Shown piece by piece: positions 31,201-63,797 of a stretch of DNA of 64,000 bases. Origin of the DNA: Owenia fusiformis (Eukaryota > Annelida > Polychaeta > Sabellida > Oweniidae); NCBI GenBank assembly GCA_903813345.2, contig CAIIXF020000009.1, forward strand, positions 4,706,030-4,770,029, written 5' to 3'. How positions within the stretch are numbered: position 1 is the first letter of the stretch; every line of letters begins with the position of its first letter. The notes under the pieces are model-generated. The model worked only from the letters and a program-made list of their open reading frames with translations, did no database searches and was not told the DNA's origin. A program made the translations under genes and the position numbers.

Positions 31201-34200
31201 TTTAATGAAATAGTGATTTCACAATTGAAAAGGAACATGGAAAACACATGATATTAAGGTATGGTGATATTTTAATGAATTTATGAATCAAACTACTATT
31301 TATTTAGCAAACTGAAGTTTCATTAGAATTTCAGGCTTCAGGGAAGCCGACAAGTTATTACGAATGATTGTTTTAACATAGAAAAAATCCTCAAAACAGG
31401 CGATTTTTGTAAAAACAACTAAAATAATGTCAATTGTTTGCTCCTAAGGAAGCCCATATAAATTGAAAAATGGTATCAAAACATGCTCCACAAATCTAGT
31501 TTATTTCACCGAGATTTTCTACAATAAAAGCAAATGGTATCATCAGTCATGATTCTAATAATGATCAATACTCAAAATAATACAATTGGAAAGGATCTGA
31601 AGATTTGCAGTATTTATCATCATATCGTAAACCTGATTTAAAGCGAAATATGGTATTATTGAGGCTATTTTTCAATCATAAATGTTCTTCCTTCATTTTA
31701 TTCATTGTTTTCATCCGAAGGAAAGCTCTGGAGTCACGCTTCAGTTTGTCTGCCAGTATTTCAATTGGGGAAAAAAAGAATGAGATTTTATCATATGTTA
31801 TACAATTTTTCAAACGTCAGGATCGTGCAAAACAATATGTATTGTGGGAAAATGAGCAGTAATCTCATAAACGACAATTCATTCGTAGCCCTGATATATT
31901 GAAATTGATTAAAAATGCATCATTAGCGTAAAACACTGGCTAGACTTTATATTCCCATGCATAATTTTCTTTTTCTTTTCTGTCCCTACTTTTTGATTGC
32001 TTCTTCTGAATTAGGTCATTTTGTATCTTTATTTAGTTCTGCATTAATGCCTCAGCCATACAGCAACCATATGGCAGCTGTAGCTTCCCAAATTGAAAAT
32101 ACAATGTAGATTCTCTATATCAGTTTTGTAAAACTACAGCCCCTTTGCGACTGACAAAGACCAAATGGGACCGAGGCTTAAGTCTCTGTCAAATTCCCTT
32201 CCATTTCAAAATAAAGGTTTATATTAGGATATAATCCAGGGTTTGGTGCAAGTATTTTAAGAGAATATGTAAAAGAGAGTGGAGAATAAGAAAAAAATTT
32301 CTAACTATCACAAGTAGTCTTTCATTAAACCCCCATTCCCCCTCCCCTTTCATCTATTTCTTCCTCTATATTCTGTATAGAAGTTGTGTTCGTTTGTGGG
32401 AAATATGCATGAGTTTGAAAAAAGACTATATCGCAAGATCTTGACATTCAAAGAGTTGCGTTTATTGTATAAATAAAAACGTCCTGCCACAGTTATCATC
32501 ACTTATCAAGTCAGTCTGACTCTCCATGGGAAGGACATTTTTCTACAATTTTCTACAAATTACAGAATGTTGGGTTAAAATATAGACATCAGTGAAGCCA
32601 AAATGTAATTAATCACGTTTTAACTTTACCCCCTCCCTCTGGAATCATCATAACAAAACCACAAATGTTATAAAAAATTAAGTGAAAAACATTATGATGC
32701 CACAACATCATGAAATACCTTTCACCCCTTAATGTAATCTATTGCATTTTTTGACATAGAACCCATTATTTGAGTAATTTCTTGCTTGCAAATAAATTCA
32801 CGTTTTTCACGACAGCTGATTAATTTTTTGCAATCTGTCTGGAGGTTAACCCTATCTGCAAGTTGCAAAGATTAGAAGTTAAATGGTTTTTTATTTATGG
32901 GCTCTACAGGGCAATAGATCTGCAATGGGGAATGATTATTTTCTGAGGATTACTCCCATCTTGCCCTTTGTCACATATTTCAGAGACAGTACCAACTTCA
33001 AGATTCAGAGGTCCAATTTACGAAGGTGTCATTACTTACAGTTTAGTTTAGGTTTTTGTCTGATTATGAAAAAAAAATAAATTGAAAAGTTAAATAGATC
33101 TGCAATGAGGAATGATTATTTCCTGAGGATTCCTCCCATATTGCCCTTTGTCACATATTTCAGAGATAGTACCAACTTCAAGATTAAGAGGTCCAATTTA
33201 CGAAGGTGTCATTACTTACAGTTTAGTTCAGGTGATTGCATTGGTCAGCTGAAAAGGAGATCACGGGACAATTTTTGTCTGATTATGAAAAAAAAAAATT
33301 GAAAAGTTAAATCAGAGAAAAGAACATCAAATCTGTGTGTTATCGAATGAGACCTCAAATATACTGCTGTCCCAAACTGTTTGGTACCATCTGGAATTGT
33401 ACTTTAAAACTTCAACTAAGTTTCTTATACTCCGGTCGTTGAGATATCATAAGGACCCCTTTAACTGACATGAAATGACTAATCATAATTCATAAAATGT
33501 TTTATTTGAATTTTTTCATGATGATATTCTTAATAATGAGCATTTGATACAAAGTATACAACCACATGTTTGACAAATAACAATAGAAAATATTAAACTT
33601 GTGTACCTCTGAAAATTGTATAAATAATTACAAACTTATCCTGACAAATGAACACTTGAGTTTATTCTTAAAACAAGAAAACAATTCCTTGAAATGGGAT
33701 TCACAAAAACAATTTGCATTTCATGAAATTCTTCTAAAACAACATGAAAAAGATTAAAATGTCATTTTTCATTATCTTCAAATCATGAAACAAAAACATG
33801 AACTTTTAACTTTTTGATATTTTGATCAAAAGTCGAATGAAATCCAATAAAATGTAAAACTTTTATTAAAGAGTCACAATTGTTCAACGACACTCCAAAC
33901 AAATGTTGTCAATATTTGCCGAAAATGTTGACTTTCAAATTCACGAAAGCCTCTGTTGAAAGCTGGGAATCGCCCCAATAAGTCACAGAGAAAACTTTAA
34001 CCCGTATGAATAAAACAAGGTATTCAAAAATTACTTTAAAACACTTGAAACTGTACAGTCAAAACTGAAAGAGGCTAGCCTATGGGAACAATCAATGGTT
34101 AACCCATTCAAAAAATCAACAGAGATCTTTGTAATTTCCTGAATTTCTCAAAAATATTTGAATAAACTCTCTAATATTTTTGCATTTCTTTACAATTTAG

Positions 34201-37200
34201 GATATCCCCTTTGAGACTGTTTACTTTTTATCATGCTAATTTCTCTCATTTGTGCTGAAAATCGCAAAAGAAAACATGACCATGTACCAATTTCATGCCA
34301 CTTTCTATATAGAGAATCATTGATCAATATGTACATGCTCTATAGAAGAGCTCATTCACTGCTGAGTACACACAAAGTAACACGGGGAATCTTTGCTCTT
34401 TTACATGCTAGAAAACCAATAACAATTAGAAGGTTGGTCCAGGTAGGACAAAAACCCACGACACATTCTGACAAACAAACGGAACTATCGTTAACAGTGG
34501 CAGTAACACGATAATAAACACTACAAAAAGATCAAACTAAATTAGCAGAACTCAAAGATATGGATCAGTATCAAGTCAAGTAACAACAAATTAGAAATAG
34601 TTGCGAGATGAAAAAGCAGTACCCTTATGATAGCTGGAGTAATTTTGACAGAAACATTTGCACAAATCATAAATATGCTTCCGGAAATCATGGATATTAA
34701 ATGTATCACAAAGTGGAAAATTGCATACAGGTATTATTTAACAATGTATTGTGTATTAATATCGTATTATGGTGTATCATATAATGCACTCTAGACAGAT
34801 CACAGACAGACAGGTATATTGATATAACATATGGTACATAAAATAAACAATATAGCATCAATATCATGTCAGGAGGGTTAGATTTTCCCATAATAAACAC
34901 CAACATTGACTTTCAATGATTTTTATTACATTTGGTTGAGTCATTAAAATTCTAATTGAAAAAATCATATATTTAAATTATTTGAGGAATTTGCAGCATC
35001 ATAAAATTAGTCAAACTACCCTAGCTAAGAATCTTACAAAGAAATGAAATACAGTCATGAAATTAGTAGCATTATCACCAGTACCCCTGTATCAAGGTGA
35101 TATATCATTTTAAAGCTTATTGGTACACAGGGGGTTATAATAGCCAGTAGGTGGGACCAATGCCATTGATTAGCTTCTACCTAATCCTCAGTCTACAATA
35201 ACATTATTCTAAATCACCCAGTTATACACCTTGAGTCTACTTTGACTACAATACCCCCAAAGTCCAGTCTCTAATTGCACTAAATCCTTGTTAAAACCAC
35301 CATTTTATTTGAGATCTTGTTTCAATATTTTCAGAGGCATTCTAAGCATTTCAGCTCAGAGGTGTTATATTTGGCACTCAATTTTTATTTTTGGGGTTTA
35401 TTACTTATACAAAGTATTTCGTAACAAACGGTCGAGATTATTTCATAAATTGGTTTGGGAAAGTAGTGTGACATTTTTGACTTTCTGATTTGATTTTTTG
35501 ACATTTTGCTAAAGGTTCTCAAATATGTTAACTCTTTTCTCAATAATTTGTCTTCACTATATGCGAGTTGTAAACATCACTGTTATCAATAGAATGAGTT
35601 GACAATAACCAACTCATAATAAAAACTTAAAACTGAGCTCGATAAATTGCCAAAATGAGTAAAAACTCAAAATGCCCTTGTTACTGAGACTCTAAGTATT
35701 ACAAAACTCAGAAAAGTAGGTAGTTCATATAAATCTTAGAGAGAAAAAAAGCATTAAATAGGTTTAACAATCGTGAAATTTTAAGGAAAGGTTCGCTGAA
35801 TACTCACCTGTGAATTCTATTGTTATTCATTCTTTGAAACTTAAGACATTTTTGTCTGAAGTCATTCGTGACATTATAACATAGTCGGCAGAAAATATTT
35901 ACACAAAATATCATAATAATCATTTTAATATTTGAAATAAGAAAACATATCAGTAACACCTGACCTATGGAAATATATTACGTATGAGATATTTTCGCAC
36001 ATAGACCTTGAGTTTATACCGTTGGCACGATGACAATACTTAAAGCTTCGTTAAAATATGATGTCATGAGCAAATAGGTTCGTTTAATGCTTTGGATATT
36101 ATCGTCAAAACTAAAATGAAGTTAAGATTTACCGAATCAAGTAAGGAATCAGTATTTGAAATATTTCAAGAAGTTGATGAATTCAATAAAGGTGAGAGAA
36201 AATTGTTTTTTGTAATTAGAAACTAATTACTTATTGTTTGCAGTTGGCTAGTTTCAGTAAACAGACGGAAATTGAGAAGAAACCTTTCATAAAGTAAGAT
36301 CTATTCAGCTTAAATTAGCGTTTTATCGTTCCGAAAAATGTTATCACTTTTGAAAAATAAAAATGTCATGAACATCTATTGATTTTCGTACCATTTATAA
36401 ATAGAGGAATAAATTTTTGGCAAGATCGTAAGTTCATTTTGATGATGTAATAAACAGGGTGGTTGCATAAAGATCACCTGTGGGGCAATATCTCTCACTG
36501 ATGCGATCCAATCAGAATACTCCTGCAAAAATCATCCGTCTGCTTATGCAAAATCATCCTAATCTCTCTAAAATTTGAATGAACTGTCTAATTTTATGTG
36601 ATTTTTGAATAATTTAGAGCATCACCTTCATATCTATTTAATCAATTTCTTGCAAATTCCTCAATACTTCTGATAATTTCTAAGATAAAAACATCACCAC
36701 CATGAGATTATATTTCTGAGTGCACAGAATTCTTCAGATAGAAGTGCCAAATTTATCGTCTGAAATGTGCTTATTACTTCACAAATACTGTACAAGTTTC
36801 TGGATGAAGGCAAAATTGATCAAAAACATGTTGATAAGTACAATATTTCATCTTAAAAGCACAAAACTAATTCTCACTGACAAGGATTATGGAATACCTG
36901 ATATTGCTATCATAAGGGCTATCTTGACTTTTGACTGCTGATGAGAGTCGACTGACCTCGTGATTTTTCTTTTTATGTTTAGTTAATGAGTGGACCATCG
37001 AGTCTTTAATTAATTCAAAGGTCTTAATGGTCACCTGGAATTCTAAAGTGAATTGCGTCATTGTGAACTCTCTAACTCAAATATAGAGAAACTGATACAA
37101 TGAAACTGAATGGGAAATTCAAATATATGAACAGCAAAGTGTATATACCGTAATATAGCAACACTCTGTGTAGAACAATTGCAGAGTACATTGTATTTAC

Positions 37201-40200
37201 ATAAGTCTGTATACTAAATTATTCCTCAAAGTATGTTGAATAATATTGCATGCGTTCCTAGAATAATAGTGTACATAACGTAACTGAATGGCAGCTGACA
37301 AAGCATCTATCGTTGTTGTATTCATCTACATATTTCTCTGTAGCTTAACTTCAAAATAGTCACACACATTTCCAAAATGTCCATATTTGGACATTGATAC
37401 ATTTTCCTTCCTCTCACATGCTCTTTTAGTATTTTAAGATTTAAAACGGAAGATACAAAAAGTAATTTCTGATAAGATCAACTCAAGTAACATGTTAACT
37501 TGAGTATGAGACCAAATGGTTCCTATATTTGAAGGCCATTGATTGTCTTGTTTTAAAATCAAAATTACAGTAGAAAAGAGTGAAATCAGCAAGGAATAAA
37601 GTAATCAGGCATGTAGCAAACACTCTAAATTGTATAGAAATGCAGAAAAATTGGGCAGTTCATTCAAATTTTAGAGAGAAATAGAGTGAAATAAGCAAGG
37701 TCAAGTTATAATTTATTTGAGATCCTGGATAACGACTACAAACAATCAATAACAATCATAACAAGGTTGATAAAATATTCATCACAGAAAATTACCAGAA
37801 ACTTGACACCAATCGCGTAACAATTAATTGTAAAACAAATATGGAAAATAAACGGTCAATTCTCTGCATACAAGTGTGAAAGCTGGGTAGCTTCCGGGGT
37901 GTTTGAAAATCTACAAGTTGCTTTATGTAATCGCGTGATTGTAAATGTTTAAACAGCAATGTTACACGTATCACATTCTGTAGACTTAAAGAGAATATGG
38001 ACGATGTTGGCTCATATTGTAAGTTTGTGTACAGAGCATACAATTAACTCTCAATTAGTATTGGAGTGCCATGTTCAGCGTTCCTAGACAAACCAAGTTT
38101 GTTTTCTTTGGTACTTCTTACATTTTGTATAATAATGAGGCTTTTTCATGGTCTTGCATCAAATCTCTACTTACATACATGTTCACATATAGTTTTGTGA
38201 ACAGTATGAGAAAAAAAGGGCAATATAGCGCTTGAATCAAGAGAAGCTACTTCCATGATCTGCGTACTAGACTTTCATTGCATGAAAAATGCCCTGGGTG
38301 TTTAAATGGGCCTTCAATGACTTTTGGTTTGAGAAAATTAGCCCTTTGAGAGAAATAAGCCATTTTTGCAAAAATAGGCTCAAATGTGCAAAAAAACGCC
38401 TAAATGTTTTGATATATGGATTTTCAAAATGGGTACAGTCTCCTCTCCCTTGTCACTATGACTGCAGATATGTCCGTGAATAATTGTAAAATTACATATA
38501 CATGTAATAGAGGTTCGAATCTAACTCACGTGAACTATCATGAGAGCCATGAGGGCTATTACTATTAAAATATTCACAAGTTTCATTTTCACATTCACTT
38601 TAAATCATCTGCTCCATATAGCTCATAATGTTCACTCTGTCAAGGAGTTAATGATATGATTTAGGATTTAATGATGAATAACTAAGAGGAGTAGTGCAAC
38701 ATTAAACTACAGACATTCCCCAGGGTAAAAAATTATATTGAAGTTTTCAAGATGAAGAAAATAGTTTTACCCTATACCCATCTAAGTGAATGAAATTGTA
38801 CTTTTTAAACCTCAAAAAGTTCACGCACCCCCTCCCTCCCTCATTGTGGGTAAAATCAATGAATGATCAATGCAAACTATATGTATGACATCATCTACAA
38901 ATATGTTGAATGGCCCATGTTATCGAGACCTTACTTTGAAACTTACAAAGAACTCAATGATTATAAGACAAGGGTTTTCAATCGATGTTGTGTAGTACTC
39001 TCTTATCTCTAGATAAGTTAAATGGGAAAACAATTTGGAAGGTCCACTACATGAAAAACCACTCAAGTATAAGTCCTGATTGCATTGGAGAAAATACCAC
39101 ATCCTTTTTATTATTTTGCAAACCAGATAACCTTCAGTAGATAAGCTAAAAGTTAAAATGTCATCTCTAAAATATCAGAGTGCCGCCCGAGGCATTTTAA
39201 CCTTACTTTTATAAAGACAAACAAAAATATCTGCACGCAATCTTAACACTAATATCTTGTATATGAAGCATCTAACATCTAATTTAACACAAAATTAATT
39301 AAACACTGCCAAAATTAAAATGCCATAGGCCTCGTACCTAGCCTTTATATCAAGCTGTATACACATACCCTTTAGCAATTTCACTTTTCGTTTAATGACC
39401 AGTTATTAACTATACCAATATCAGCATGAGATAAAATAGATGTGCATTCGTCAAAAAGGAACCAAACAAGGTAGACTGCTGATATTGAGTCGAAAAATAT
39501 TTTTTCAAGATTTGATTTTGTCAGACATAAAAGAGTTTGAATTTCAATGTTGACGGGAAATCTTTCATAAATACATTTGGAAATGACACATGCGGTAAAT
39601 CAAAAGTGTTAATTGAAAAAAAATATTGGTGGTTCATTTTAGTGACCTCATCCATGTATAAGTTGACAAATTATTTATTAATGATAAATTGAATGTGATT
39701 AATTGTAATCAAATGTTTGTTATTACTATTTCAGTTGTACGTGACCACATTATGACTCTTGATTGTGGATCGACTACCAAACACCTGTGACCTGAAACTA
39801 ACCAATCAACATGTGTAGAACTAGCCAATCAACAATTTTGATAAATTAACAAACGTGTAGATATAATCGGAATCACGCTATAGATCAAAGGCCTACGACT
39901 GATCAACCTGTTTGATGCCAAAGAAAAAAGGTGACAGTCCATCAATCAGAAAATTAAAAACTGTCCCGTCAAAAAGTAGGAAATAAAATACATGGACACC
40001 TGTGTGCGTTGGATGGAATATTATTACACAGAGAATAATGATTTAATATCGTAAATCAAATTATGCAGTGTACATATTTCACATAAGGTGCAAGTACTGA
40101 AATATTGCCAAAATGTTATCGAAGATGTTTTATATCGGGGTTCTTACCCCAGCATGCATCACTGTCGCCTTTTTCGTGGCTTTTCTCATCTGCTGGTTTA

Positions 40201-43200
40201 AATGTGGACTACGTGAAAAATTCCTCCGAAAACGATATCCAGAACATTTTAACAAAAATGAACCGAACGTGCAATTTACAGACTTAACCTACCGAAATAG
40301 GAATTGTGGATTCACAGAAAGGGATGTTCCGGAAAGTGACGGAGGACGTCAATTAAGCACCCCATCATCAACACATAGTTATGAGACAATGGCAGACTCC
40401 CATTCAGCAGCAGAGAGTGATCATAGTTCTATTAGTAACTCTTCAACTCAGAGAATGCTTGGAGTTGGAAGCAAAGAAGACCAAAGAAGGTCACAGCCTC
40501 ATTTTGAACCTAAGCAGACGGCTTTACCTACCTTTGGTGAAAGCCCCATCTATGGGGTACAGCGACAAGGCTGGAATTATCCCACCCAGCACCAAGACTA
40601 TATCACCCAAAAACATACTCAACAAACAATAAACAAACAAAATGACAAATGCAGATATACAAATAAACAATCATCAAATAATGCAGAAGCACCATTTTCT
40701 ACTGACAGTAAAAACATTACCCAGGAATGGATTAAAAATTACAGATGCAGTTCGCTAGAAGATCATTATAAACACTGTGTTATTGGAATACATAATAATA
40801 GCGACATTAAAACCTCAAATTATGTCCCAGGAAATTATGTTTCCTCGTCTTACCCAGAAGCCCCAAAAGACATCACTAGAGGGCAGCAGTATTTACAAAG
40901 CCAAATAAGAGACTTCAAAGGGTACCATCCCCCTCCCCCAGATGTTACCTATAATCATCCCCCAGCACGCCCTGGGACATACATCCCCCGTAGTCTGTCT
41001 GACACATATGGGATGTTTGTCACTCCCCAGAACTACCCCCAAGTGCATAGTGGACCCAATTATTACCAAGGCATAGACACTGATTCAGAATATAACAGAG
41101 ACTACATGTATCAACCCCCTAGCCAAAATGAACATAGGGTTGCTATACAAATGGTGTCATAGAATTTGAAATAATTTTGTGATTAGAAGTTATGAAGATC
41201 AGTCCCCAAAAATATGCATCTAAATGTTATCTTCATGATGAAAGTTTCAGTTTTAATGGAAATCAAGTATTATTTCAAAATTTATGTGTTGTTATAATTT
41301 TGAAATTTTCAGTTTTTAATGCCTGAGAAAACAGAAAATCAAATATTATTTTGTCAATGTAGGTTTCAGTTGTCACACATTGAGATACCCTTTTCAAAAA
41401 TAAAAGAGTGATTGAATTCATTTTACTCTTTAGATTTCTGATAATCCTTTAACTCTGAGCTTATCAGATGCTTAATCATTAAATGATGGTTCTTGAAAAG
41501 TTAACACATTATTGCAGCCCTACAATGTTCTGATTGGTTGAGCAACTTAGTTAGAGGATGGCGACTTGGCACTGAGCCCAGGGTAGCAATACTGTGGAAT
41601 ACTAAGCCATATACTCCCATCCCGACATAGCCGTGCCCCCTTTGTCTTATCCTTCCAAATGGCTGATAAGAGGGGCTCTGGCATACCAGAATGATATGCT
41701 CCTACATGCTCAGATACTAGCATGTTATTGGTTTGAAATGCCATTCATTGATTGTAATGTCACACCAGTACTAATTAACACCAAATAAATATTTACACAA
41801 TCATTTTGTATCTTTCTCTCTCCCATTTGGGGAATCAATAGTCTGAATAGAGACCTGTGTTACTGCATTGTTAAATCAAAGGTGACTTTGACTACGCACA
41901 TTATGCATAATAAATCATGATTTGTAAAAATGCATGACTTTTTTACTACATGTGTGACTTACTTCTGTCTAAATGTATGACTACATGTATTCAAAACACT
42001 AGATCAACTGCCTTATATGACTGTTCTGTGAAAATGCTTGACTGTTTGATAATTATTTCAAAATTAGAAACTGGAAAGATACATGACTGTTATAGCAATA
42101 TGCTTGACTATTCTGTTAAGACACAGGACTATTCTGTTAAAGAGACACTATATTTCTGTCAAAATGGATGACTGTTATGGAAAAACTGGTCTGTCAAAAT
42201 GTGCTACGTTCATGGCAACTTAACCTACAATTCTGTGGGAGTACTTTCTACTGTTCTGTCAAAATATGTACGGAAAGTATTACTTTATTTATAACTGTAC
42301 ATGTATATAAAATATTATATGATGTAATGTAACTCTGGACTAAAAGTTTTTGTGATATCTGAGCACTAAACATTGTAAAGTATCTTATCAGACATGTATG
42401 TACACGAGGGGAAAGAGTACCCGTGTATATACAACCTACCGCCGAGCAAGACACGCACATACCGCCGAGCAAATGTTTGATAATGTCATCTCGTAGGAAA
42501 ATGGACAATAAAGGTAATATAATGTCACTAACAATTCCCTTGGATGGTTAGAGTTGTTACTAAGATGTTCTAGCAGGCGCAATTGGCCTAGAATTATAGT
42601 TGAAATATATTTTTATGTCCAAATTAAGAGATAAGGTAAACGTATAATGGTTTTCGATTTGTTTTTCTCATTCATACTCGCTTTAATTGATAATGAGCCA
42701 TACATAAGACATACTTGGGTCGGTAAATGGATGTGCATATGCATAATATATTAAGTGTCAAAATATTAGGTCAAAATAGCACTTTTGAACAGCAAAATCT
42801 TCACTTAAACTTTGTCCTAAAAGATCCGAGGTTATCGGACATCGGACCCGATGTGATCGACGAGTAATATTATAAAGATCCGAAAATATCTTGAGTAAAG
42901 GATCTCAGAATCCGAACATTACTTGAGTAAAATCTGTTGAGATCCGATTATATCGTCGAGTTTATGACGTGCTGATGAAAAAATAATAAACATACAATCT
43001 GCATCATTCATGTGAATCATTTTGTTGTGAACAATAAATGAAACTGAAAAAAATATGGCTATCACCAGTTACCACTGCACATCGAAACATTGTATTTCAG
43101 GTCCTCGGTACAAATGCTTCCACTGTAGTTATAAATCACACGAGATGGATGACTTTGTGGTCCACTTCAGTCAGCACCATCCATTACTGATTATTAAAGT

Positions 43201-46200
43201 TAATGTGCCTGAGTTAAATGGCAAAAAATGGATTTACAATGTTTTTGACTATGGTATTGTATTATCAAAGAAAGATCACGGTAATTTTCGTTTCGAGGAT
43301 ATGAAGCTTGTGAAGCTTGGGATTCTTCAAGTTGTGTTCTTTGAGTAGAATGGCGCTTGTAATGCAGAATTAAATGTTTTTGGGTTGCACTCTTACCATA
43401 GACACATAGGAAATAATGGTGATTCAAGTGTAAGCATGAATTCAATGTTTTAAAGAACTTTGCCAGAAACAGACGTTGACGTATAGTGCTGCGGGAATTA
43501 TATCATATTATATTATATCCCGGTGCCAGGAGTATATGATAAATAAAAAGGAATATTTGTGATATCGTCATGATATTATATGCTCATTCGAAAGCTTACT
43601 CACGGTATAGTCGGAATAGCTCGGTGGTAGCTTCGGGTCCTATATAATCGTACTCGTGACATAATCGGGTCTTTCATTTTCAACTTTCACCGGTGATTTC
43701 AATGATATGCAACGTATGGCAGTGAAATAAATATGATACATTTACACCTATTGTATCTTTGAATCGAATGAAGTAAAGACAGCCATGGTTGTTACTTATT
43801 CAAGATGTAAATCATCATTCAAATATTTAAAAGTTGAATTTAGCGATTGGATAGTAAACATTGCGCTAAGTACTCATTATTTTGCAAACATGAGTGCCTG
43901 GAACAATAACTTTATCAGTTACACACAATTCTGTGTTTTATCTGTTTCTCATATTGAGAAATTCAAGATATAAACAAAAGTTTATAACTCACCCCCTACA
44001 TTTTCAGACATCTTCGGGTCTTTGCTCGGCGGTAGGTTGTATATACACGGGTACTCTTTCCCCTCGTGTATGTATTTGCCAGCAAAAAGTATCTGGTCAA
44101 ACTTAAAGTGTTATTAATCAAATAACTAAGCTCACGTGGAAAACTCTTTCAGACTCGTGTACAAGACTTTTAATTTGAAATGCTACTACCGAAGCTTACA
44201 AATGGTTCAGTCACACATACATCAATACGACTCAAATAAATTCTTTCATATAATGGTATGACGGATTGTAAAATCAAGCAAAATAAATCTTTTCTATAAG
44301 AAACACGAAAAGTTGATTTGTTATGACTTTCTAGCTTTATCAATGTCATTATTATAACCCCTGGGTTTTCTCCAGGACATGCCTCAAGTTGATTGCGGCA
44401 CAGTTTCGATGTAAGCGTCCAATCATATGCAAGGAGAAATGACCCTTGGGATGAGGGATTTCTAAGGATAAAGGCCAAAAATATCACGATTCCAGGGTGT
44501 CAATTTTTGGATGCGTTCTATAATTCAAGAAATTTAATCATCTGGAAAGTGATCAATCAATAGCCTAAGTAATCAATCAACATAAAACATTTGCCCCTTC
44601 GTAACCAATCAACTAGAAATATTCTAAGAGTTGTCCAGTCTTTGGTATATTTTTCTCAACCTCATTTATAATCTTATGACATCCTGAGGAAACAGAATCT
44701 ACTCTATGAATGGATCTTCTCCTTTTTTGAAAAGCTAATAGATACAACATAAGTAAAGCAATATATCACCCTTTGAATTTCGAGATCTTTAATGCAAGCA
44801 GGGTCTTTAAGCCTACTCTAATACATGGAAAAATTGTTATTTGGCAAAACCCTAAATTAAAAAGAATATGTCCAAAATCAAACACTCACTCTTCTTCTCT
44901 TCTTGATGCCTTAAACCTTCAAAATAAAAATCATTTAAAAAGTTACAAGGCATATAATTTTCTTTTCTGTAGAGATATATCATTTATTTAAATCCCAAAG
45001 CATCTTTGTTCACTCGGCTCCCATCGCAGTGAAGCTGGAGAGTGTGAAGATGCTTTTAAAGATGAATTGCCTGATACAAGTATGAGATGTAAAGCATGGG
45101 ACACTTTCACCATTTCTGATTATGAGCCATGTAAGAAGAGGTCTTTGCTCTTTTGACATCACACAAATTCATTAACATGCAACCCCAATAGGCACATGAC
45201 CTCATGAATACTAATGCAAATTTACATTTGCTCCAGTGAAAATGTGACTTCTGGAAGACAAATCACATGCATTTACTGATGCAAAACATGAACAATTAGA
45301 ATCAAAATGACAACTTATAATCGTAATAGCTCAATTAAGGTTTTCACTTTTAAGAATAGCTAACGAAAGTTAATCTTTATAAATTGCTTTCCAATGGTGT
45401 AAATTTCTCTGGAATCCTATCAACTTTAATCTGGGACAAACAATTTGTTAAAGCAATAAATTCCATTTGAAAAACTGAGAACTTAAATCAACGAGACAAC
45501 ATCATGCTTTGTTCTAAATGCTAAAAACTAATCTCACTTATAATTGTCTCCCTAAATACTTGTACTTTATATTGATAAATATGACTTAAATAAATATGAC
45601 AGTATGAAAATGTCAGCTACACCAACTGCATATAGTAAATATTCACAAGGTTCCTATAAAAAAGAGCAAAACACATTTCTTCTGAGGTGTTAACTCGACC
45701 GAAAGCAGACATACATCATTTACATATAAGGGGTTGCATCAAAAATATAGAAAGTTCCTCTACTAGACTGGACCAATTTTAGTGTCTCATACATTTTAAT
45801 TATAAGATTTGAGAAAAAAGGTAATATTTATGCATGGCAGCCCATGCATGAGTTTTGCCATGTATATTCCACTCCTAGTCTAAAAATTTGTAGCCTCAAA
45901 ATTTGTAGTTCCAGATTCCTTTGCTTCATTATTTGAAATATATGACATTCAAGCCCATTCATATTTTTCCTCATAGATTTTTTCCCTTTGTTCTGTAAAC
46001 AGAATGTGTATCAGTACATTTTGGTTACAGGTTATCGAAATAGCCAGTCAACGTGGGGGTATTTTTATTAGAACTTGAATTATAAAGATGTACCGCTGCA
46101 AAATGCAGAGATCAGACATTCCAGATAAGACATATTTCTTCAAAATTGTTTTATAACAAGCAAGTAAGTTCCAGGGAAAACATAAATTGGTTTTATTTTA

Positions 46201-49200
46201 AATGTGGTTTTCTGAAAAAATGTGAAATTCATTGAAAATACTTCATTCACATCAAATTATGGCAACAAGGTCTAAAATATTTTTCAAGGTAATTATTTGG
46301 AAAGAATAATGAGTGGTTGATCAATTAAATACCAATCTAAAATCATTTTTATAAAGTCAATCGTTGGCTTTAATGTTAAAAGCCTTACATTGCCGATTGA
46401 CATTATATATGCAACAATGCAATACATCATCAATTTTTTTTTTAAAAAGGAAGCTTAGACAAAACAAAACATCAAACAAACATCCAACAATTTCACCCAT
46501 ATGTTTCCTAAAAACTTGTCCCAGGGTAATCATAACTCGAAAGAGATCATCAGAACACCGATTCAGAATCTGTATCGATTGCTTAGATAAATGTTAGTGG
46601 ATTCACATATCAGCAAATTAGTTTTAATGGCTACAATCGAATATGTTTTCGACAATAGAAGTAAGACTTAAAAAAACAACGTGGAGGAAACCAAAAACTT
46701 GTCAAACACAGTAGTTGTATATAAATTGAAAAATATCAGTTTTAACCAATATTTTGTTTGACATGTTTTCAATAGCTATTTTAGTCTCATAATTCAGAGT
46801 TTATTGAATAACATGCCACATCAATAAATGTCACACAAAAATGTGATCTCTGACATTCTATTAGACATCATTGTGTAGTTATGGTATTTCATGTGGTAAA
46901 AATGGCTGAATATTTGTCATATGAGAAATTTGAACTCTGAAATGAGTATGATAAAAGTACGGTAAAACTTGTTTATGTGAATATAACTAAGATTGGTCAA
47001 AAGTGTTCAGATTAGCAGGTGTTTACATTTCAAGATTTTTTAACATGAGAGTCAATGGGGGATAGTAAAATTAGGACTGAGAGAAAGTGGGTGTTTGATA
47101 AGAGAGGTGGAGAATACCCAGGTTTAATGTACACAATATATTGTAAAACCAATGTTTTTTCATCAAATATTTTCAGAAAACGTGTTGATAACTTTGCCGT
47201 CTCACATTTCTATAGCCAAACTTTACTCTATCTGTTAATCTTAAAAGTATAGTAATTGCCAAGATTATTCATATTTAATACCACAGATCTGTCTATTTAC
47301 AGATACACATTACAGCCATCACTTGGATCAAAAATAGGTAACTGAAGAATTAGAGGTTCATTGTAAAAACTTGTTAAAGCACACCTTGTGTGAAACTATA
47401 TGTTTGTAGTTTATTCTTTCTGAAATAGCTCGGATCTAGCGAGAAAATTTTGAAGTTTGGTTGTATTTGGAGTGTATTTGCACCAATCTGTGCATACCAT
47501 GCGTACTGGGCGCTACAGCTATGTCTTAATTAAAGGAAATTTTCCAATGAGAACTGGGGTGTGCTGCAGAAAGAAACTTTCCTACCTGTAGGTATGTTCT
47601 TGACAGCCTCTTCAAACACCATACAACACCTTTGCTCCATCTTTCTACTGATAGCTGAAATAAAAACAAATGACTTGAAAACAGAAAGAGCCATAACATG
47701 ACAAAATGTCACCACCAGGTTGCCATTAAAAAATGACATAACTGTTACAGAACTGAAATGAACACCAACTGCTGGCACCAAAAATTGTGACTATAACAAT
47801 GTTATATGTTAACATTTCTGATTTCTCATCCTCCTAAGCAGGTATCCAGAATCCATACCTATAACCAATTTGAAAGTGCCCGATTAAACTGAATCACGTA
47901 TCTAATTATGCGCAATGACTTATACATGATTTCTGTCGCAGTGTCGACAGCCAATCAGATTGCGAGTTCTTAATCGGGGAAATGCTAACTGCTTATCGCA
48001 GGGGGTAAAATGAAAGAATATATTCTGGATTTTGAAGCCCTGTGATCGGAGGATGACATTTCTTGGTGGTGACATAAAATGAGAGCCATATATTTTTGGC
48101 AGTACTAGTACATAGTAAAGTGTTGTTAGTCTCAAAATTTTGAAGTCTTACAATATATTCGTCAACACATTTAGACAAATAAAACCTGTTCAGTTGAACA
48201 CCTCTGTAATCGGAAGACCTCCATAAGTGGAACAGTTTTTGAGGTCCACTAAAAAAGTCCTTGTATGTGGAATATTTATTTTCTTAAATTATGGGGGAAT
48301 ATATTAAACAAATGAAAACTGTTCAGTTGAACACCTCTGTAAATGGAAGACCTCCATAAGTGGAACAGTATTTGAAGTCCACTAAAATAGTCCTTGTATG
48401 TGGTATATGTCTATTTTTAAATTATGCAGGAATATATTAACAAATGAAACCTGTTCAGTTGAACACCTCTGTATCACCTCGATATTATGAAAATGATTCG
48501 ATACAAATTATTCGATACGCATATTCATGTAAATGTCTGTGTATACATAGAGGAGTGGGGGTTCGAGTCCCCCGCTAAAAAATCTTTCAAAGTTACCCTT
48601 CTGAGCATAGAAAGTGGTGTTGTTATTGAATGTTGGGCTTTTAAAAGACCTCAACACCTCAGATTTACCTTTTGGGTTGTGTTTATTGCGATGATCTCCA
48701 TATTACGAATATCAGCAAATTTAAGTGAATTAAATCTTGCCGAGGTTTCGCTAGTCATTAAATATTCGAGCGTCATGTTTGATTGTCGTTTGCTAAATAT
48801 ATCGCAAATTGGAAAGATACTATAACATATTAAAATAAAGATATGTCTATGGCCCTATCGCATTTATTACGTATTAAGATAATTAATGGTATAACATTTG
48901 GTGTGGAAATGCACATAGAGCATCTAAAATCACAAATTTTCGCAAAATTATTGAATATCTGTTTATTGCTCAAAAGTTCACATTCAGATTGAATCATGAA
49001 TCATTGAATCGGAGGTGATTCCTAGCGATTATATCGGTGCATCGACCAATCGTGCGATCCCTAGTTCATACATAAATCTATGACTTAAGATTAGGGATGA
49101 TTCAGAATATTCAAACACTGTCCATTGGGGATAATAAGGTTAAAGAGAGATCAAATAGAACAAAAAATCCGAATAATCATCAATATACGTTCTTCCACAT

Positions 49201-52200
49201 AACTGATGTCATATTTGAACAGGTCTAAAACAGGTCTATCTTAAGCCTCAGTCGCATTTGCTCTAAGACGGCCATACAGTGGCCATAGCTTCGCAAAATC
49301 CAAAAAATCTACATCATACTACTTATCCCTCTATTTTATGCTGCATATTTCTCTTGATTTTGGGATGCTACAGCCACTGTACAGCTATCATGAATCAACT
49401 GTGACTGAGAGGCATAACTCAGTTTTTTTAACATTCAATGCAAGTGAAAGAGTTTTTAAAAATTTAGACATCTTCAGAGTTAAAAATATTTTACCTCCTT
49501 GTGCAGCCAAATGTTGCTTAGCAACAGCTTCCCATGTGACCTCTTTGTCACCATGTCGCTCTCTGGCAAAGTTTAAAATCTCAGTCTGATGTGGTTGGGT
49601 GAAATCGAACAATCTGGCAATTGGCAAAAATGAGAGCCACATTTCTATATCTTCATCAAATTCCTCGACAGCTTTGCGGAAGACAATAAGAGCCACCATT
49701 CCTTTAAGAACTGCGTCACTTGGACCCTCTTCATTCATCGCACCAAGAATCTCGCTTCGTTTTCGTAACTAAAACCGAAAGACAATGTATTTTCATCATA
49801 ATGTCAGTTTAGAACCACTTGTAACAAAATATTGGAAATTGAAAATTGTTTTTCTCTTAATATGGCAGACAACTCATATCACTTTTGTTCTCAAATGCAG
49901 CAGGATTTTATATCAAAACTTGTTTTGACCTGACATCTATAGTTGAGTCATTATACTATTTCCTAATAAACTGATGAATAGTAAAACAGAACCTCTAAAT
50001 GAACACTGTTTCAGTAAATTGAGCTAGATATGAAACATTTCTTGAAATCTTAAATTGTGGCTAGCTTTGATATCAAGGCAATCAATATTTGGTAAGTATA
50101 CTTTTTTCTAATTTTTCTCTTATATTTATAAAAATTGTGGCGCTTACATATTCATTCCACCAGGCAACAAGAGAAAATCAGATTGTGTTAACTAAATTAT
50201 ACATGTTAAATGGAACCAAATCCATGCAAATGTCTCAAATAATTTTGCTCATTGTTTTGCTGTGGAGATTTTATTGAAATTAAAGAAATACTTTACCTTG
50301 TCTGCATATAGGAGCTCCATTCTGTAGGACTATAACATAGAAAGATAAATATATTTATCCTGAATAATACAACTTGGTCGAGAGAAGCAATGCTCATATT
50401 TTCATTCTGGCCATGCCTTCGACCATGCAATTTATATGATAATTCTGATAATGGACTTTCTAGTATTAACGGTTTTGAGTACTGTCAAGAGATGGCAAAA
50501 AATTCAGTGGGTCAGATGTAGACATTAGCATTAAAAGTTACATTAAAGATATATCCAATAATACACTTTTAATCTTAATTTAAAACCACAATTCCATTCT
50601 GATACTCATCAAATATCAACAGATGGGAGGGGGACAACATTTTAAGTGTGATTGTTATCAAGTATTGGCCCTTTAATGTTGACACATTACAAATGTTACA
50701 TAATAGTGTATTGTCACTTTGTTAGTGTCTCAAGTGGTATCAACTCATTTAGTTTTATGACCCAATTTAGGGTAAGATAAGGATGGCCATCAAGATGTTC
50801 ATAGTCTCTAAAATGATCTCATTGGTCAATTGATCTCTATAATTGATCTGATTGGCCCTCAGCATTTTCAAAAAACTGTACGGGCCTTGATCGAAGGTAG
50901 GCACCAACTGTCTCATGGCATACTAGTGTGAAGCCATTCTGATACTCATAGCATCTTTCTGTTTCACTTGAAACAGGACTGAGAAGATTTGTGATGTCAT
51001 GGTTTATCATGATGGTGTGAAGCTAATAGGAGGCCATGATTTCTCATGATGCCACAATTCAGTAATTTACTTATGTGCAAATGTTTCTTGCTATGCCAGA
51101 AGATTGAAAAGGTATGTCTATATTGAACAAATACCTCTCGCCATAACTCCTTTGATTTTGGGTTAAACCGTAGCCCCCTCTGGAGGAAGTTTCTAGCATT
51201 GTCTGTCGATAAGGCATCTTCCATTTCCCATTTTGCCGCTAGGATCCACAATTCTGAAAAAAAATTGTTGCTTATATTCAAATGAATCAATCACCCCCCT
51301 CAACTGGCTCACACTCCAAAAACTGAAACTACTATATAGAGTTATATATTATTCATTTCTTTAAGGCTTTATAAACTAGACAACTGCAACGCCAAAGCGT
51401 AGCAAATCCCATCGAACAGCCATGGCTGGCATATTTACAAACAAAGTATATAGCAAAAATGGCAGCCATTTTTCAAAATGGCCACCTTCTACCAAAAGTG
51501 TCATTAGACAGTGTGCCATGCTTATGATATAGTGATATATGATATAGTGGCCTTAGAAGAAGGTAAAACTATTATACCTGGTTTTCTTGTGTGTATCTGC
51601 AGCATTTGGTTATAGATTCTGCTGACACTTGCCTTCTCTCCTCTCTGTTTGCTGAACTGTATGTGAGATAACCACAGTTTAACATCATCTTGGAATCTCG
51701 ATAAAGCAAGCTGAAAATGTCAACAAAAATTAACGAGACAGTAAAATATAAACATCAAAAAAAGCAGGTATTAAATATGAAGTTACTTTTCAAGAAATTT
51801 CAATGAGCTGTTTTCTGGACCTACAATGACATAATCTATCAACAAGACACACAGTGATAAATATCGCACTTTGAAGAGCAAACTGGCCACCATGCAATTT
51901 ACCCAGCATAGCCAAAACCTAATCAGACCTTGGCACTAGTCTGCTCTTCCATCTGTAAACATTTCAAGTTGACAAGGTTAGCCGTTTTCCTGCAATTTTG
52001 ATGACAAGAATTTATTTGTAGTCTTGAACTTTGGGAAAATTTAGATAACATTGTTTGTGACCTAATTTGATGACCTTCGACCTTGAAAATTTCACTTTTT
52101 CAGACCTCAGTAGGTCTTTTGTAATTAGCTGACCTAAATTTAAATCCAAAATATCAATTTAGAAAATCAAATTTTTGACCTTTTCAAGGCCACTGAAGGC

Positions 52201-55200
52201 CAACGAAAGGTCAAATCTGAAATATAAGGTCAGATTTGAACTTCTGAGAACTTGTAGATGTTTTTAAAAAAAAAATTTGGTCAATTTGGAGCAAGTTGAA
52301 AAATTCAAAATGGCCGCCAAATTGAAAAATTCAAAATGGCCACCATGTAATTCAGCCAGCATACCCAAAACCTAATCAGATCTTGGCAATAGTCTGTTCT
52401 TGCATCTGTAAAAATTTCAAGTTGAACGGATAAGTGGTTTTCCTGGAATTTTGATGACAAGATTTGTTGAAAAATTCAAAATGGCCACCACGTAGTTTAC
52501 CCAGGATGCCCTTAACCTAATCAGATCTTGGCACTAGTCTTCTATTGCATGTGTAAAAATTTCAAGTTGAACAGGTTAGCGGTTTTCTTGGAATTTTGAT
52601 GACAAGAATTGATTTGTAGTCTCAAACTTTGAGAAACTTGGATAACATCATTTGTGACCTAGTTTAATGACCTTGACTTTCGACCTTTAAAATTTCACTT
52701 TATCAGACCTCAGTAGGTGTTCTGTAATTAAGCTGACCTAAATTTAAATCCAAAATATCAATTTAGAAAATCAACTTTTTTTACCTTTTCAAGGTCACTG
52801 AAGGTGAATGAAAGGTCAAATCTGAAATCTAAGGTCAGATTTGAACTTCTGAGAACTTGTAGATGTTTTTAAAAAAAAAATTTGGTCAATTTGGAGCAAG
52901 TTGAAAAATTCAAAATGGCCGCCAAATTAAACAAGACACACAGTGATAAATATCGCACTTTGAAGAGCAAACTGGCCACCATGCAATTTACCCAGCATGG
53001 CCAAAACCTAATCAGACCTTGGCACTAGTCTGCTCTTGCATCTGTAAACATTTCAAGTTGACAAGGTTAGCGGTTTTCCTGCAATTTTGATGACAAGAAT
53101 TTATTTGTAGTCTGGAACTTTGGGAAAATTTAGATAACATCGTTTGTGACCTAATTTGATGACCTTCGACCTTGAAAATGTAACTTTTTCAGACCTCAGT
53201 AGGTGTTTTGTAATTAAGCTGACCTAAATTAAAATCCAAAATATCAATTTAGAAAATCAACTTTTTTGACCTTTTCAAGGTCACTGAAGGTGAATGAAAG
53301 GTCAAATCTGAAATCTAAGGTCAGATTTGAACTTCTGAGAACTTGTAGATGTTTTTAAAAAAAAATTTGGTCAATTTGGAGCAAGTTGAAAAATTCAAAA
53401 TGGCCGCCAAATTGAAAAATTCAAAATGGCCACCATGTAATTCAGCCAGCATACCCAAAACCTAATCAGATCTTGGCAATAGTCTGCTCTTGCATCTGTA
53501 AAAATTTCAAGTTGAATGGATAAGTGGTTTTCCTGGAATTTTGATGACAAGATTTGTTGAAAAATTCAAAATGGCCACCACGTAGTTTACCCAGCATGCC
53601 CTAAACCTAATCAGATCTTGGCACTTGTCTGCTATTGCATGTGTAAAAATTTCAAGTTGAACAGGTTAGCGGTTTTCTTGGAATTTTGATGACAAGAATT
53701 GATTTGTAGTCTCAAACTTTGAGAAACTTGGATAACATCATTTGTGACCTAGTTTAATGACCTTGACCTTTGACCTTGAAAATTTTACTTTTTCAGACCT
53801 CAGTAGGTGTTTTGTAATTAAGCTGACCTAAATTTAAATCCAAAATATCAATTTAGAAAATCAACTTTTTTGACCTTTTCAAGGTCACTGAAGGTGAATG
53901 AAAGGTCAAATCTGAAATCTAAGGTCAGATTTGAACTTCTGAGAACTTGTAGATGTTTTTAAAAAAAAAATTTGGTCAATTTGGAGCAAGTTGAAAAATT
54001 CAAAATGGCCGCCAAATTGAAAAATTCAAAATGGCCACCATGTAATTCAGCCAGCATACCCAAAACCTAATCAGATCTTGGCAATAGTCTGCTCTTGCAT
54101 CTGTAAAAATTTCAAGTTGAACGGATAAGTGGTTTTCCTGGAATTTTGATGACAAGATTTGTTGAAAAATTCAAAATGGCCGCCACGTAGTTTACCCAGC
54201 ATGCCCTTAACCTAATCAGATCTTGGTACTAGTCTGCTCTTGCATCTGTAAAAATTTCAAGTTGAACAGGTAAGCAGTTATCCTGGAAATTTGATGACAA
54301 GATTTGGTTTATGTACCGCCCGCCCGCCCGCACGCCCGCCCGCCCAACAGCACAAGACGACGGCAATATAGCACTTTTTCAAAGTGCGATAAAAATTCAA
54401 AATGGCCACCATGTAATTCAGCCAGCATACCCAAAACCTAATCAGATCTTGGCAATAGTCTGCTCTTGCATCTGTAAAAATTTCAAGTTGAACGGATAAG
54501 TGGTTTTCCTGGAATTTTGATGACAAGATTTGTTGAAAAATTCAAAATGGCCGCCACATAGTTTACCCAGCATGCCCTTAACCTAATCAGATCTTGGTAC
54601 TAGTCTGCTCTTGCATCTGTAAAAATTTCAAGTTGAACAGGTAAGCAGTTATCCTGGAAATTTGATGACAAGATTTAGTTTATGTCCCGCCCGCCCGCCC
54701 GCACGCCCGCACGCTTGCACGCCCGCCCAACAGCACAAGACGACAACAATATAGCACTTTTTCAAAGTGCGATAAAAAACTTCAAAAATGGCTGCAAGAA
54801 AACAAAATGGCTGCCTGAAAACTTAACATAGAATATATTTAGTTGGGCAAAGTCTCATATATCATATTCACTGTGAACAATTAAAGTCTAGCATACATTT
54901 CATAATTCTATTTTATTTCTATCAAGCACAACATATGTTTTATTCGTTAACTATTTTTTCTCTCCTTACCTGGAAAAGCTTATGGATACGCTGTACTATG
55001 GCGACATCTATTTCAACACGCTTGAATGTGTATCCAATTTTCTGTCTCCTTTTTCGCACCAAATTGAGCACATTGATTTCATACTGGAATACATGTTATT
55101 CAATTAACTGCATCAAAACTTATCTGTACATGCAAAAAATACAAAACTTGTCTAAAGGATCCTTTTTCAAGAAGCGGTTCCGATAAAATAAGAGCCATTG

Positions 55201-61338: not shown

Positions 61339-61887
61339 ATGGCAGACACAGCAGCAAAGAAGGCAGCAAAGCCAAAGAAGCCAGCCAATCATCCCAAATA
61401 CAGCGAGATGATCCAGCAAGCCATCACTTCACTGAAAGATCGTACAGGATCCAGCCGAGTTGCCATCCTGAAGTACATCCAGGCTAACTTCAAGGACCTT
61501 GGTGGCGATGCATCCGTCAACTCTCACTTGAAGATGGCTCTTCGTGCTGGTGTGAAGAATGGTGCTCTCAAGCAAACTAAAGGAACTGGTGCATCTGGCT
61601 CCTTCAAAATTGGCAAGGTAGAGAAACCAAAGAAGGTCAAGGTAGTGAAGAAGAAACCAGCTGCCAAGAAACCCAAGGCAAAGAAACCAGTGGCCAAGAA
61701 AGAGAAGAAAGTAAAAACCCCCAAGAAGGCAGCAAAGAAACCAAAAACACCCAAGAAGGCTGCCAAGAAACCAGCAGCCAAGAAGGCCGTCAAAAAGACT
61801 CCAACCAAGAAAGCTGCCAAGCCAAAGAAGCCAGCTGCAAAGAAAACACCCAAGAAGAAAGCCGCAAAGAAACCAGCCAAGAAATAA
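61339..61887 (+). CDS. Linker histone H1
   Basis: A 182-residue, intronless, lysine-rich linker histone that binds nucleosome entry/exit DNA and compacts chromatin. A short N-tail (about 1-16) precedes the winged-helix globular domain (about 17-92; [61 protein letters not shown]). The C-tail (93-182) is made of KKPAAKK and TPKKAAKKP repeats. Length and domain order are normal for invertebrate replication-dependent H1. Codon use is more GC-rich than the surroundings. It has a TATA/cap promoter and a 3' stem-loop instead of a clear poly(A) signal. It is a lone copy here; no core histone genes are adjacent. The open minus frames across it are shadows of the Lys/Ala repeats. Confidence 0.97.
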
Positions 61888-61918
61888 ATGCTGAAACATT
61901 AAACACCAACAACCCAAA

Positions 61919-61934
61919 GGCCCTTTTCAGGGCC
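61919..61934 (+). terminator. Histone mRNA 3' stem-loop
   Basis: GGCCCT-TTTC-AGGGCC in the context ACCCAAAGG...CCACCCA, a perfect match to the metazoan histone stem-loop bound by SLBP. It lies 31 nt past the stop. A purine-rich histone downstream element candidate (aaaagag, 61948-61954) follows at the expected distance for U7 snRNP pairing. Confidence 0.97.
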
Positions 61935-61959
61935 ACCCATTACTTACAAAAGAGTACTA

Positions 61960-62700
61960 GGTTTATGAATTTTCGAAAGGTCGAATGTGTGCTTTAATTT
62001 GACACCGAGGGATCTTTCAACATATTAAGTCTTCTAGCATGTTTTAGGGGGTTAGTAAATGACTCTCGAATTATTTGTGAGAAAATAACGAGCGTTTGCA
62101 CAATTCAAAAAGAAGCAAGAATGTCTGGTTCCTCACCTTTATTACCGATCGAAAATACGGCCAACACCTGGTCAAGAACTACTCTTCTCAACTTCTGAAA
62201 CGCTCGCACGTTTTCTTTCCTGCTCCGAGATACTGAATTTTGACCAAACTGAGCTTAGATCGATGGCTAGCGAGAGATTTCTCTGTTATGTTGAGAAATA
62301 ACATATGTAACAAAGAAAGTAATTTAGTCTTGCTTAAAGACCCTGGAGATAAGGGGGACCCCGAGAACGAGACCCTCCCGGGAGACTACCACTTATGATG
62401 ACAACAATTCGAGAATTGTTTTGGTCTGAACGTGCCGACGACTGTGAACCCCATCCCCCCACCCACCGCTTTCAAATCACCACTAGTACACACAGCATTA
62501 CCACAAAGTGGTGGGAAAGTAGATAAGGGAGGGGGGTCCCAGAAGCTAGTTCAACAAGTTCCTAGTCTGGGCCTTATCTGTTATCTGACATATCTTGTGG
62601 CCCGTCCTTTAACGTCCGTGCCTATTCGGCCCATGATGCAAAACATTTAATGGTGGCCTATGACAACGCAATTCATGCGCGTTTGATACTGATAGTGAAA
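61960..62700. other. 3' flank of H1
   Basis: No gene recognised. Somewhat GC-richer around 62340-62540 with C/G homopolymer runs. Confidence 0.4.
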
Positions 62701-62836
62701 ATTTGCAACAAATGAAAGCATAGCACGGAAGTTAAACTCAATCACGGCAACAAGAACATTCAGATTAATAAATACAAGCCGTGGTATTGGTTTTAACTTG
62801 AACTACCCAGATAGGGAAACAGCGAATTATGCAACT

Positions 62837-62942
62837 CATCCTCCGATCACAGGGCTTCAAAATCCAGAATATGTACATGTTCTTTCTTTTTACCCCCTGG
62901 GAAGAATGAGGTACGGATTCTGGATACCTGCTTAGGAGGATG
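62837..62942. mobile_element. 106-bp foldback MITE with perfect 8-bp duplication
   Basis: CATCCTCC...GGAGGATG ends with inner inverted text atccagaat / attctggat. Flanked by atgcaact at 62829-62836 and 62943-62950. Same family as the copy at 47820-48055, shortened in the middle. Confidence 0.88.
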
Positions 62943-63049
62943 ATGCAACTCTTTTTTGGACCACTCTGAATAATAACCTACTGATGATAAGTGAATTTTC
63001 AAGGAATTAAAGAGAGAATCAGATATAGCGAACAGGCTAAACAAAAAAA

Positions 63050-63385
63050 TGTTTCAATTTTAGAATATTTTTGGTTCATGTCATTCCTTGTCATGTCTAT
63101 TTTCTAAAAATCACAAAAGTGCTTACTTTATTCCAGGAAAACTAAAGATTTTTACAATAATGTATTATTTTTCTATAAGAATGGTTACCATCCTTATTAT
63201 TTGGGAGAATTTAAACATTTTTCACTCATTTTTGCACTTTGAATCATTAATTACTTCACCAATTCATAATATATTGTGAATCTTTTGGGAGATATTGTAT
63301 TTGATGTTATAAGGAATAGATTGGTAGGTCAATTATACATGTTGCTTGTAATTTTGTCACCCCCTATAGATCAGATTCTGCCTTT
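63050..63385. repeat. Uninterrupted paralogue of the repeat at 1925-3300
   Basis: Its reverse complement matches both halves of the split copy and reads through the insertion point. It ends near agatcagattctgcctttaa, with a mirrored form near 63005-63025. Confidence 0.72.
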
Positions 63386-63797
63386 AATATACGCCTACGC
63401 ATTTGTTGAGTGTACTTGTTCCGGGCACGTTCAGGCCAAAACAATTTTCTAAAGTGTTGTCATAAAGAGTAGTCTTGTTTCTGGGTAGTTCAAGTTAAAC
63501 CCAATACCACGGCTTGTATTTATTAATCTGAATGTTCTTGTTGCCGTGATTGAGTTTAACTTCCGTGCTATGCTTTCATTCTCAATATTCACTATTAATT
63601 CAAAACCATAGGAATGTCCGTTTATCCCGTGTGAAATTATTACCCAGCAAACATTGAACAATAAGATAAAATTAGATTTTGATAAAACAAAAACGTTTTG
63701 CAGAATTAATAAAAAATCGAAATCATCGATTATCATACACTGTCATATTTGAAACCAAAATATATCACTTTTTAGAAGTGATTATGCTTTTTGCTAG

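Follow-up and report, generated by a model that had tools for sequence, protein, structure and literature searches.

A terminal-inverted-repeat element of 1666 bp in Owenia fusiformis, probably a non-autonomous DNA transposon, with a candidate C2H2 zinc-finger reading frame

Spectre, a Mutator-like transposon of arthropods, carries a transposase and generates 8-bp target duplications. In the available part of its description, the text places the C2H2 domain in an open reading frame (ORF) beside that of the transposase and gives terminal inverted repeats (TIRs) of 74 bp in the complete copy, whereas the table lists 76 bp and one ORF, so that the source is internally at odds (PMC6446971). Miniature inverted-repeat transposable elements (MITEs) and other non-autonomous elements are abundant in bivalves, according to the accessible portion of a further source (PMC10294476). 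The Dada transposons, as far as the accessible text describes them, generate a 6-bp duplication, lack terminal inverted repeats and target small-RNA genes (PMC3706591). The present work concerns a compact element bounded by TIRs in the annelid Owenia fusiformis. It lies in a stretch of 64,000 nucleotides of contig CAIIXF020000009.1 (GenBank assembly GCA_903813345.2, positions 4,706,030 to 4,770,029 of the forward strand), hereafter the window, in which all positions given below are numbered. A first-pass annotation had delimited the element at 42401-44070 and had pointed to a zinc-finger ORF as its only credible gene.

The element, 1666 bp long, is read as a non-autonomous DNA transposon of the cut-and-paste type, bounded by TIRs, with a probability of roughly 0.8. 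This reading rests on the perfect TIRs, the exact 6-bp repeat that flanks them, the subterminal boxes, the little CpG loss and the lack of a recognised transposase. The features looked for in a non-autonomous TIR transposon, namely TIRs flanked by a duplication and no recognised transposase domain, were found. The parts of the element are the following:

42397-42402, no strand: left target site duplication TATGTA, 6 bp, an exact match to 44069-44074
42403-42449, plus strand: left TIR, 47 bp, beginning with CACGAGGGG and including the box TACCGCCGAGCAA (comparison of arms, boxes and flanks)
42457-42472, plus strand: inner second copy of the box in the left end, ACATACCGCCGAGCAA (repeat family and box search)
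42820-42965, no strand: CpG-rich cluster upstream of the ORF (word and CpG counts)
43055-43348, plus strand: 97-codon ORF with one C2H2 finger (C21, C24, H37, H41; ORF list and pattern scans)
43617-43629, minus strand: degenerate copy of the box inside the right end, with 2 mismatches (box search)
43633: further TCGGGTC near GACATAATCGGGTCTTT (word search)
43658-43674, plus strand: GACATAATCGGGTCTTT, a copy of the stretch adjoining the right TIR, holding TCGGGTC (repeat family)
44007-44023, plus strand: GACATCTTCGGGTCTTT, adjoining the right TIR and holding TCGGGTC (repeat family and word search)
44022-44068, minus strand: right TIR, 47 bp, complementary to the left one throughout (comparison of arms and flanks)
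44069-44074, no strand: right target site duplication TATGTA, 6 bp, an exact match to the left copy

The inverted arms at 42401-42449 and 44022-44070 are 49 nt each and 100% complementary. The perfect 49-bp repeats described in the first-pass annotation are thus borne out, and are refined here to 47-bp arms plus the TA of the duplication. Among ten offsets, the best boundary is 42403-44068, at which TATGTA stands on both sides with six of six bases identical; the mobile unit then runs from CACGAGGGG to CCCCTCGTG. The outer TA of the 49-bp arms is most likely part of the TATGTA duplication, because a six-base flank match is rare among random pairs of positions in the window (6e-4 for a fixed boundary, 5e-3 for ten offsets). 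The 49-bp repeat took in the TA of the duplication because this dinucleotide reads alike on both strands. When the boundary is shifted outward by one or three bases only 4-bp matches are left (ATGT and GTAT), which are shorter and less likely. At 42403-44068 the sole other direct repeat, judged by eye on the flanks, is the shorter TA. The arms have no further match in the window (23-mer, at most 3 mismatches; blastn, E <=0.01), and the left end, folded back on itself as single-stranded DNA, does no better than shuffled sequences (z 0.49).

Inside the TIRs the ends are organized around repeated sites. The repetition of the box within the left end, reported earlier, is confirmed by exact copies of TACCGCCGAGCAA at 42437 and 42460; a third exact copy is found at 44022 on the minus strand, and the fourth is the degenerate one at 43617. 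These four copies are all the matches with at most 2 mismatches in the window, where 0.26 are expected, and none of 100 shuffles reaches four. Counting both strands, the element holds four of the five copies of TCGGGTC (or GACCCGA) in the whole window; in 1000 shuffles of the element the mean of this word is 0.06 and its maximum 2, and none reaches four. Transposases of many superfamilies bind at repeated sites close to the ends of their elements. By analogy, the subterminal boxes and the TCGGGTC words are putative transposase-binding sites.

Further inside, GATCCGA occurs three times in the element, all within the 125 bases of 42823-42947 (shuffle expectation 0.14 on either strand; none of 1000 shuffles reaches 3), and TATCG also three times, compared with 0.83 expected from its density in the window. 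The earlier description of the interior as "full of" these words was an overstatement. The cluster at 42820-42965 comprises GATCCGA at 42823, 42877 and 42941, ATCCGA at 42910, TCGGGTC on the minus strand at 42845 and TATAAAG at 42871; from these words it is a candidate regulatory or protein-binding block. A bacterial-type promoter scan is uninformative for a eukaryote.

The age of the element was addressed through its CpG content. The observed/expected ratio is 1.05. In 591 other window stretches of the same length, which overlap one another, it averages 0.45, and the 2-kb flanks have 0.20 and 0.41. After removal of the TIRs and the CpG-rich block the ratio is 0.87. Seven of the 591 stretches, starting at 7.7-8.2 kb and 59.6-59.7 kb, are as high as the element and, therefore, high CpG alone is no proof of youth. 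The little CpG loss together with the perfect arms fits a recent arrival, which is what apparently took place, and the recent movement proposed earlier is supported as probable.

No transposase domain was recognised by Pfam in the six frames of the element with stops read as X, in 10 of its 22 reading frames scanned singly, or in the finger ORF. The earlier statement that a transposase is missing thus stands in the sense that none is recognisable by a scan of limited sensitivity. The longest other frames wholly within the element have 100 residues (on the other strand) and 78 residues, and neither could hold an entire DDE transposase as a single exon. Decay beyond the reach of Pfam, or division into small exons, could still hide a transposase remnant. 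Matches to ATP-synt_J (E 0.019 in the X-read frames and E 0.00033 in a 40-residue frame alone, below the cut-off), TEADIR3 (E 0.29) and Ski7_3rd (E 0.15) were rejected as chance matches in AT-rich frames.

Some observations weigh against the non-autonomous reading. No second copy of the element was detected in the window (blastn, E <=0.01), and no autonomous relative was found in viral_contigs, in which two TIR 20-mers have no match. The scan with stops read as X is weak, as it missed a HAT-repeat match that was found from a single ORF (E 6e-5, below the Pfam cut-off). Finally, TATGTA is set within a short TATG-like tract, and the TA with which it ends reads the same on both strands; consequently, a duplication of 2 bp, TA, has to be reckoned with as an alternative to the 6-bp one.

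In the mechanism proposed for the non-autonomous element, a transposase from a longer relative elsewhere in the genome would bind the boxes in both ends and would cut at CACGAG/CTCGTG, and the element would then be pasted into a staggered 6-bp cut. Being moved by the enzyme of a longer relative is common among such elements. Should the finger ORF be a gene at all, it may be what is left of the transposase as its N-terminal DNA-binding exon, or else a small accessory gene that the parent carried, and would have been retained after internal deletion of the parent element. A non-autonomous derivative that kept one gene, an option already raised in the first-pass annotation, is the simplest fit to a compact TIR element with one plausible C2H2 frame. 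If the element is of this ordinary kind, it adds one well-bounded family whose ends, subterminal boxes and 6-bp duplication are defined.

The 97-codon ORF and its finger residues C21, C24, H37 and H41, here counted by eye, exist as previously claimed. The length of the ORF says little, because 80 of 1000 dinucleotide shuffles of the element contain an ATG-initiated ORF of at least 97 codons, as do 31 of the 147 further window stretches, overlapping one another, that were compared. When a loose finger pattern is asked for, within an ORF of length at least 50, it turns up in 5 of 1000 shuffles, but in 11 of 147 real stretches. With a strict C2H2 pattern, defined by an aromatic residue before the first C and a hydrophobic residue before the first H, the ORF at 43055-43348 is the only match in the six frames of the window; the pattern is held by 3 of 2000 element shuffles and by none of 60 whole-window shuffles, a rarity that is somewhat flattering since the ORF was already in view when the pattern was drawn up. 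In Pfam the ORF is matched best by the ZNF462 finger (E 0.014, 15.5 bits, below the cut-off of 27), with Actin_micro (E 0.11) as a second weak match, whereas the best PDB match is a ZHX1 finger, weak but sensible (E 0.22). A tblastn comparison with 5 pattern stretches of viral_contigs and 33 of genome_contigs found no relatives of the ORF, these collections, one prokaryotic and one viral, being poor places for an animal transposon. A zinc finger in the ORF is plausible, and 43055-43348 is possibly an accessory gene or a leftover N-terminal exon.

The alternative that survives best, although it falls somewhat short of an even chance, is that the ORF is a product of chance and the element a plain, MITE-like one with no gene. 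This is a variant of the non-autonomous reading and does not exclude it. The frequency with which shuffles and window stretches reach the same length and, for the stretches, hold the loose finger pattern agrees with a chance origin, and the G+C by codon position (0.44, 0.26 and 0.42) is not decisive. On the other hand, the aromatic and hydrophobic residues of the finger are in place, an arrangement that very few element shuffles hold, and the match to the ZHX1 finger makes sense.

An assignment to the CMC/CMCT group (EnSpm, ESTA, Mirage and Chapaev) is unlikely. It is a question of family and is compatible with the non-autonomous reading: the ends would be CAC..GTG, the duplication a 2-bp TA, and the other four flank matches coincidental. 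The element does end in CAC..GTG and TA is common to both flanks, and in the accessible part of the source the fungal EnSpm elements are described with 5'-CAC..GTG-3' ends and ESTA with TA duplications. The flanks, however, match over 6 bases and not 2, beyond the 2 to 5 bp given there for the group, and the element has no recognised transposase to compare (PMC12730594).

It is improbable that the element belongs to a two-part, helper-dependent system, in which the C2H2 protein would be an end-binding subunit that binds GATCCGA or TCGGGTC and recruits an enzyme from a separate locus. The uniqueness of the strict finger pattern in the window, the GATCCGA cluster above chance and a start codon with A at -3 and G at +4, which is the favourable context, are in line with a functional protein of this kind. 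The ORF, however, is of a length that shuffles readily match, and its best Pfam match does not attain the cut-off, while a random-looking 40-residue frame gives the lower E of 0.00033. Furthermore, a frame of 100 residues is also present on the other strand, an ATG at 43038, upstream and out of frame, overlaps the ORF start, and a single-sequence AlphaFold2 model of the product is unreliable, with a mean pLDDT (predicted local distance difference test) of 42.9. No evidence was found to support either the undescribed mobile system or the class with a separately encoded DNA-binding subunit that had been suggested, and nothing requires the former. Weaker still, and very improbable, is a whole class of transposons whose units would carry only a C2H2 end-binding protein for the GATCCGA/TCGGGTC repeats, with the catalytic subunit encoded apart. 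If the finger ORF proved to be conserved across copies that lack a catalytic gene, an unusual split between binding and catalysis would exist in an animal transposon, and such a split, if it holds, would offer a ready test system.

One TIR 20-mer matched 34 stretches of genome_contigs (L001-L034), all from actinobacteria, the genus placement of most of them being presumed. The 20-mer lies within one conserved segment, GCACGCACGAGTTGCCC..GGGCACGAGGGGAAAGAGTACCCACC, seen in the consensus of the 34 loci and in the 12 rows viewed, all loci underlying the consensus having been chosen by this 20-mer inside the segment. Among the matches listed, which cover 30 of the 34 loci, blastn of the element gives the 20-mer only, plus one 15-base match in L028. 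These loci were rejected as relatives of the element, the 20-mer being treated as a chance identity. In L006, the one locus viewed, the segment stands upstream of, and on the strand opposite to, ORFs that were recognised by eye and are presumably ribosomal proteins S12 and S7. No Rfam match was found in the 4 of 34 loci searched, and the segment is possibly an rpsL leader.

Other features are found in the window. Inverted-repeat elements are not rare in it, since two further pairs of long arms are present. At 62711-63580 arms of ~101 bp (62711-62811 and 63480-63580), 99% alike, enclose ~0.67 kb. At 16809-17146 and 17537-17877 arms of ~340 bp are 83% alike, with the outer end ATACAGGGTGTTCC, and this element at 16809-17877 is apparently older. 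Two adjacent frames in the same phase at 298-1698 are probably a broken non-LTR (long terminal repeat) element, with a reverse transcriptase domain in the first (298-912) and no Pfam match in the second. The plus strand carries a linker histone H1 gene at 61345-61884 and, after it, a histone stem-loop of the 3' untranslated region at 61914-61960. An exon at 49388-49768 (minus strand) resembles residues 204-285 of human UTP6 (E 9.9e-11); the HAT-repeat-like frame at 11473-11886 (minus strand; E 6e-5, below the Pfam cut-off) could not be tied to this UTP6-like gene. The histone gene with its stem-loop and the UTP6-like exon mark the host as a eukaryote, and probably as an animal. Long tandem arrays occupy 10232-10773 (44-bp units), 51841-54792 (~145 bp) and 55341-56516 (42 bp). 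No Pfam match at E 0.01 came from frames with stops read as X over 44071-49400 (three minus and two of three plus frames), 34001-42400 (six frames) and 10001-15400 (three minus frames); genes may nevertheless be present there, because scans of this kind failed to pick up a match that a single ORF had given.

The ends and the duplication of the element fit no single known superfamily cleanly. The hAT end consensus does not fit CACGAG. As in the element, the duplications of hAT6 are of 6 bp in the accessible part of the source (PMC12730594). The same portion of that text describes IS3EU with 6-bp duplications and TIRs longer than 30 bp, both shared by the element, but its fungal families end in TAYGG..CCRTA, whereas the element has CACGAG..CTCGTG, or TACAC when the TA is included (PMC12730594). 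The element offers no recognised transposase to set beside those of hAT6 and IS3EU. With EnSpm, ESTA and CMCT the element shares the CA..TG ends, and TA adjoins both of its own; the flanks agree over TA and over six bases, and the duplications reported for CMCT range from 2 to 5 bp (PMC12730594). Dada is ruled out by the 47-bp TIRs of the element; no tRNA was found in the window, nor any small nuclear RNA at the Rfam gathering threshold. In print, the end sequence of the element was not found (one of four end fragments occurs in an unrelated virology paper), nor was a described C2H2-only transposon, which does not show that either is absent from the literature. Compared with Spectre, the likeness consists of the perfect long TIRs and the C2H2 domain, as given in the part of the description at hand (PMC6446971). 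The differences are the 47-bp TIRs of the element, its 6-bp (or TA) duplication and its lack of a recognised transposase. A Mutator-like element (MULE) of the Spectre type was rejected, as the duplication of 8 bp (8-11 bp in MULEs) stated in the available text has no counterpart in the flanks, whose longest match over ten offsets is 6 bp (PMC6446971). For MULE-Cg of molluscs, compared by description only, the accessible table row lists TIRs of 48 bp (and 296 bp), near the 47 bp of the element, with no duplication length and no zinc finger (PMC6446971). With the MITEs, in the accessible account of them, the element shares TIRs, a target duplication and the lack of a transposase (PMC10294476). 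It differs from them in having one candidate ORF. At 1.67 kb it is also long for a MITE.

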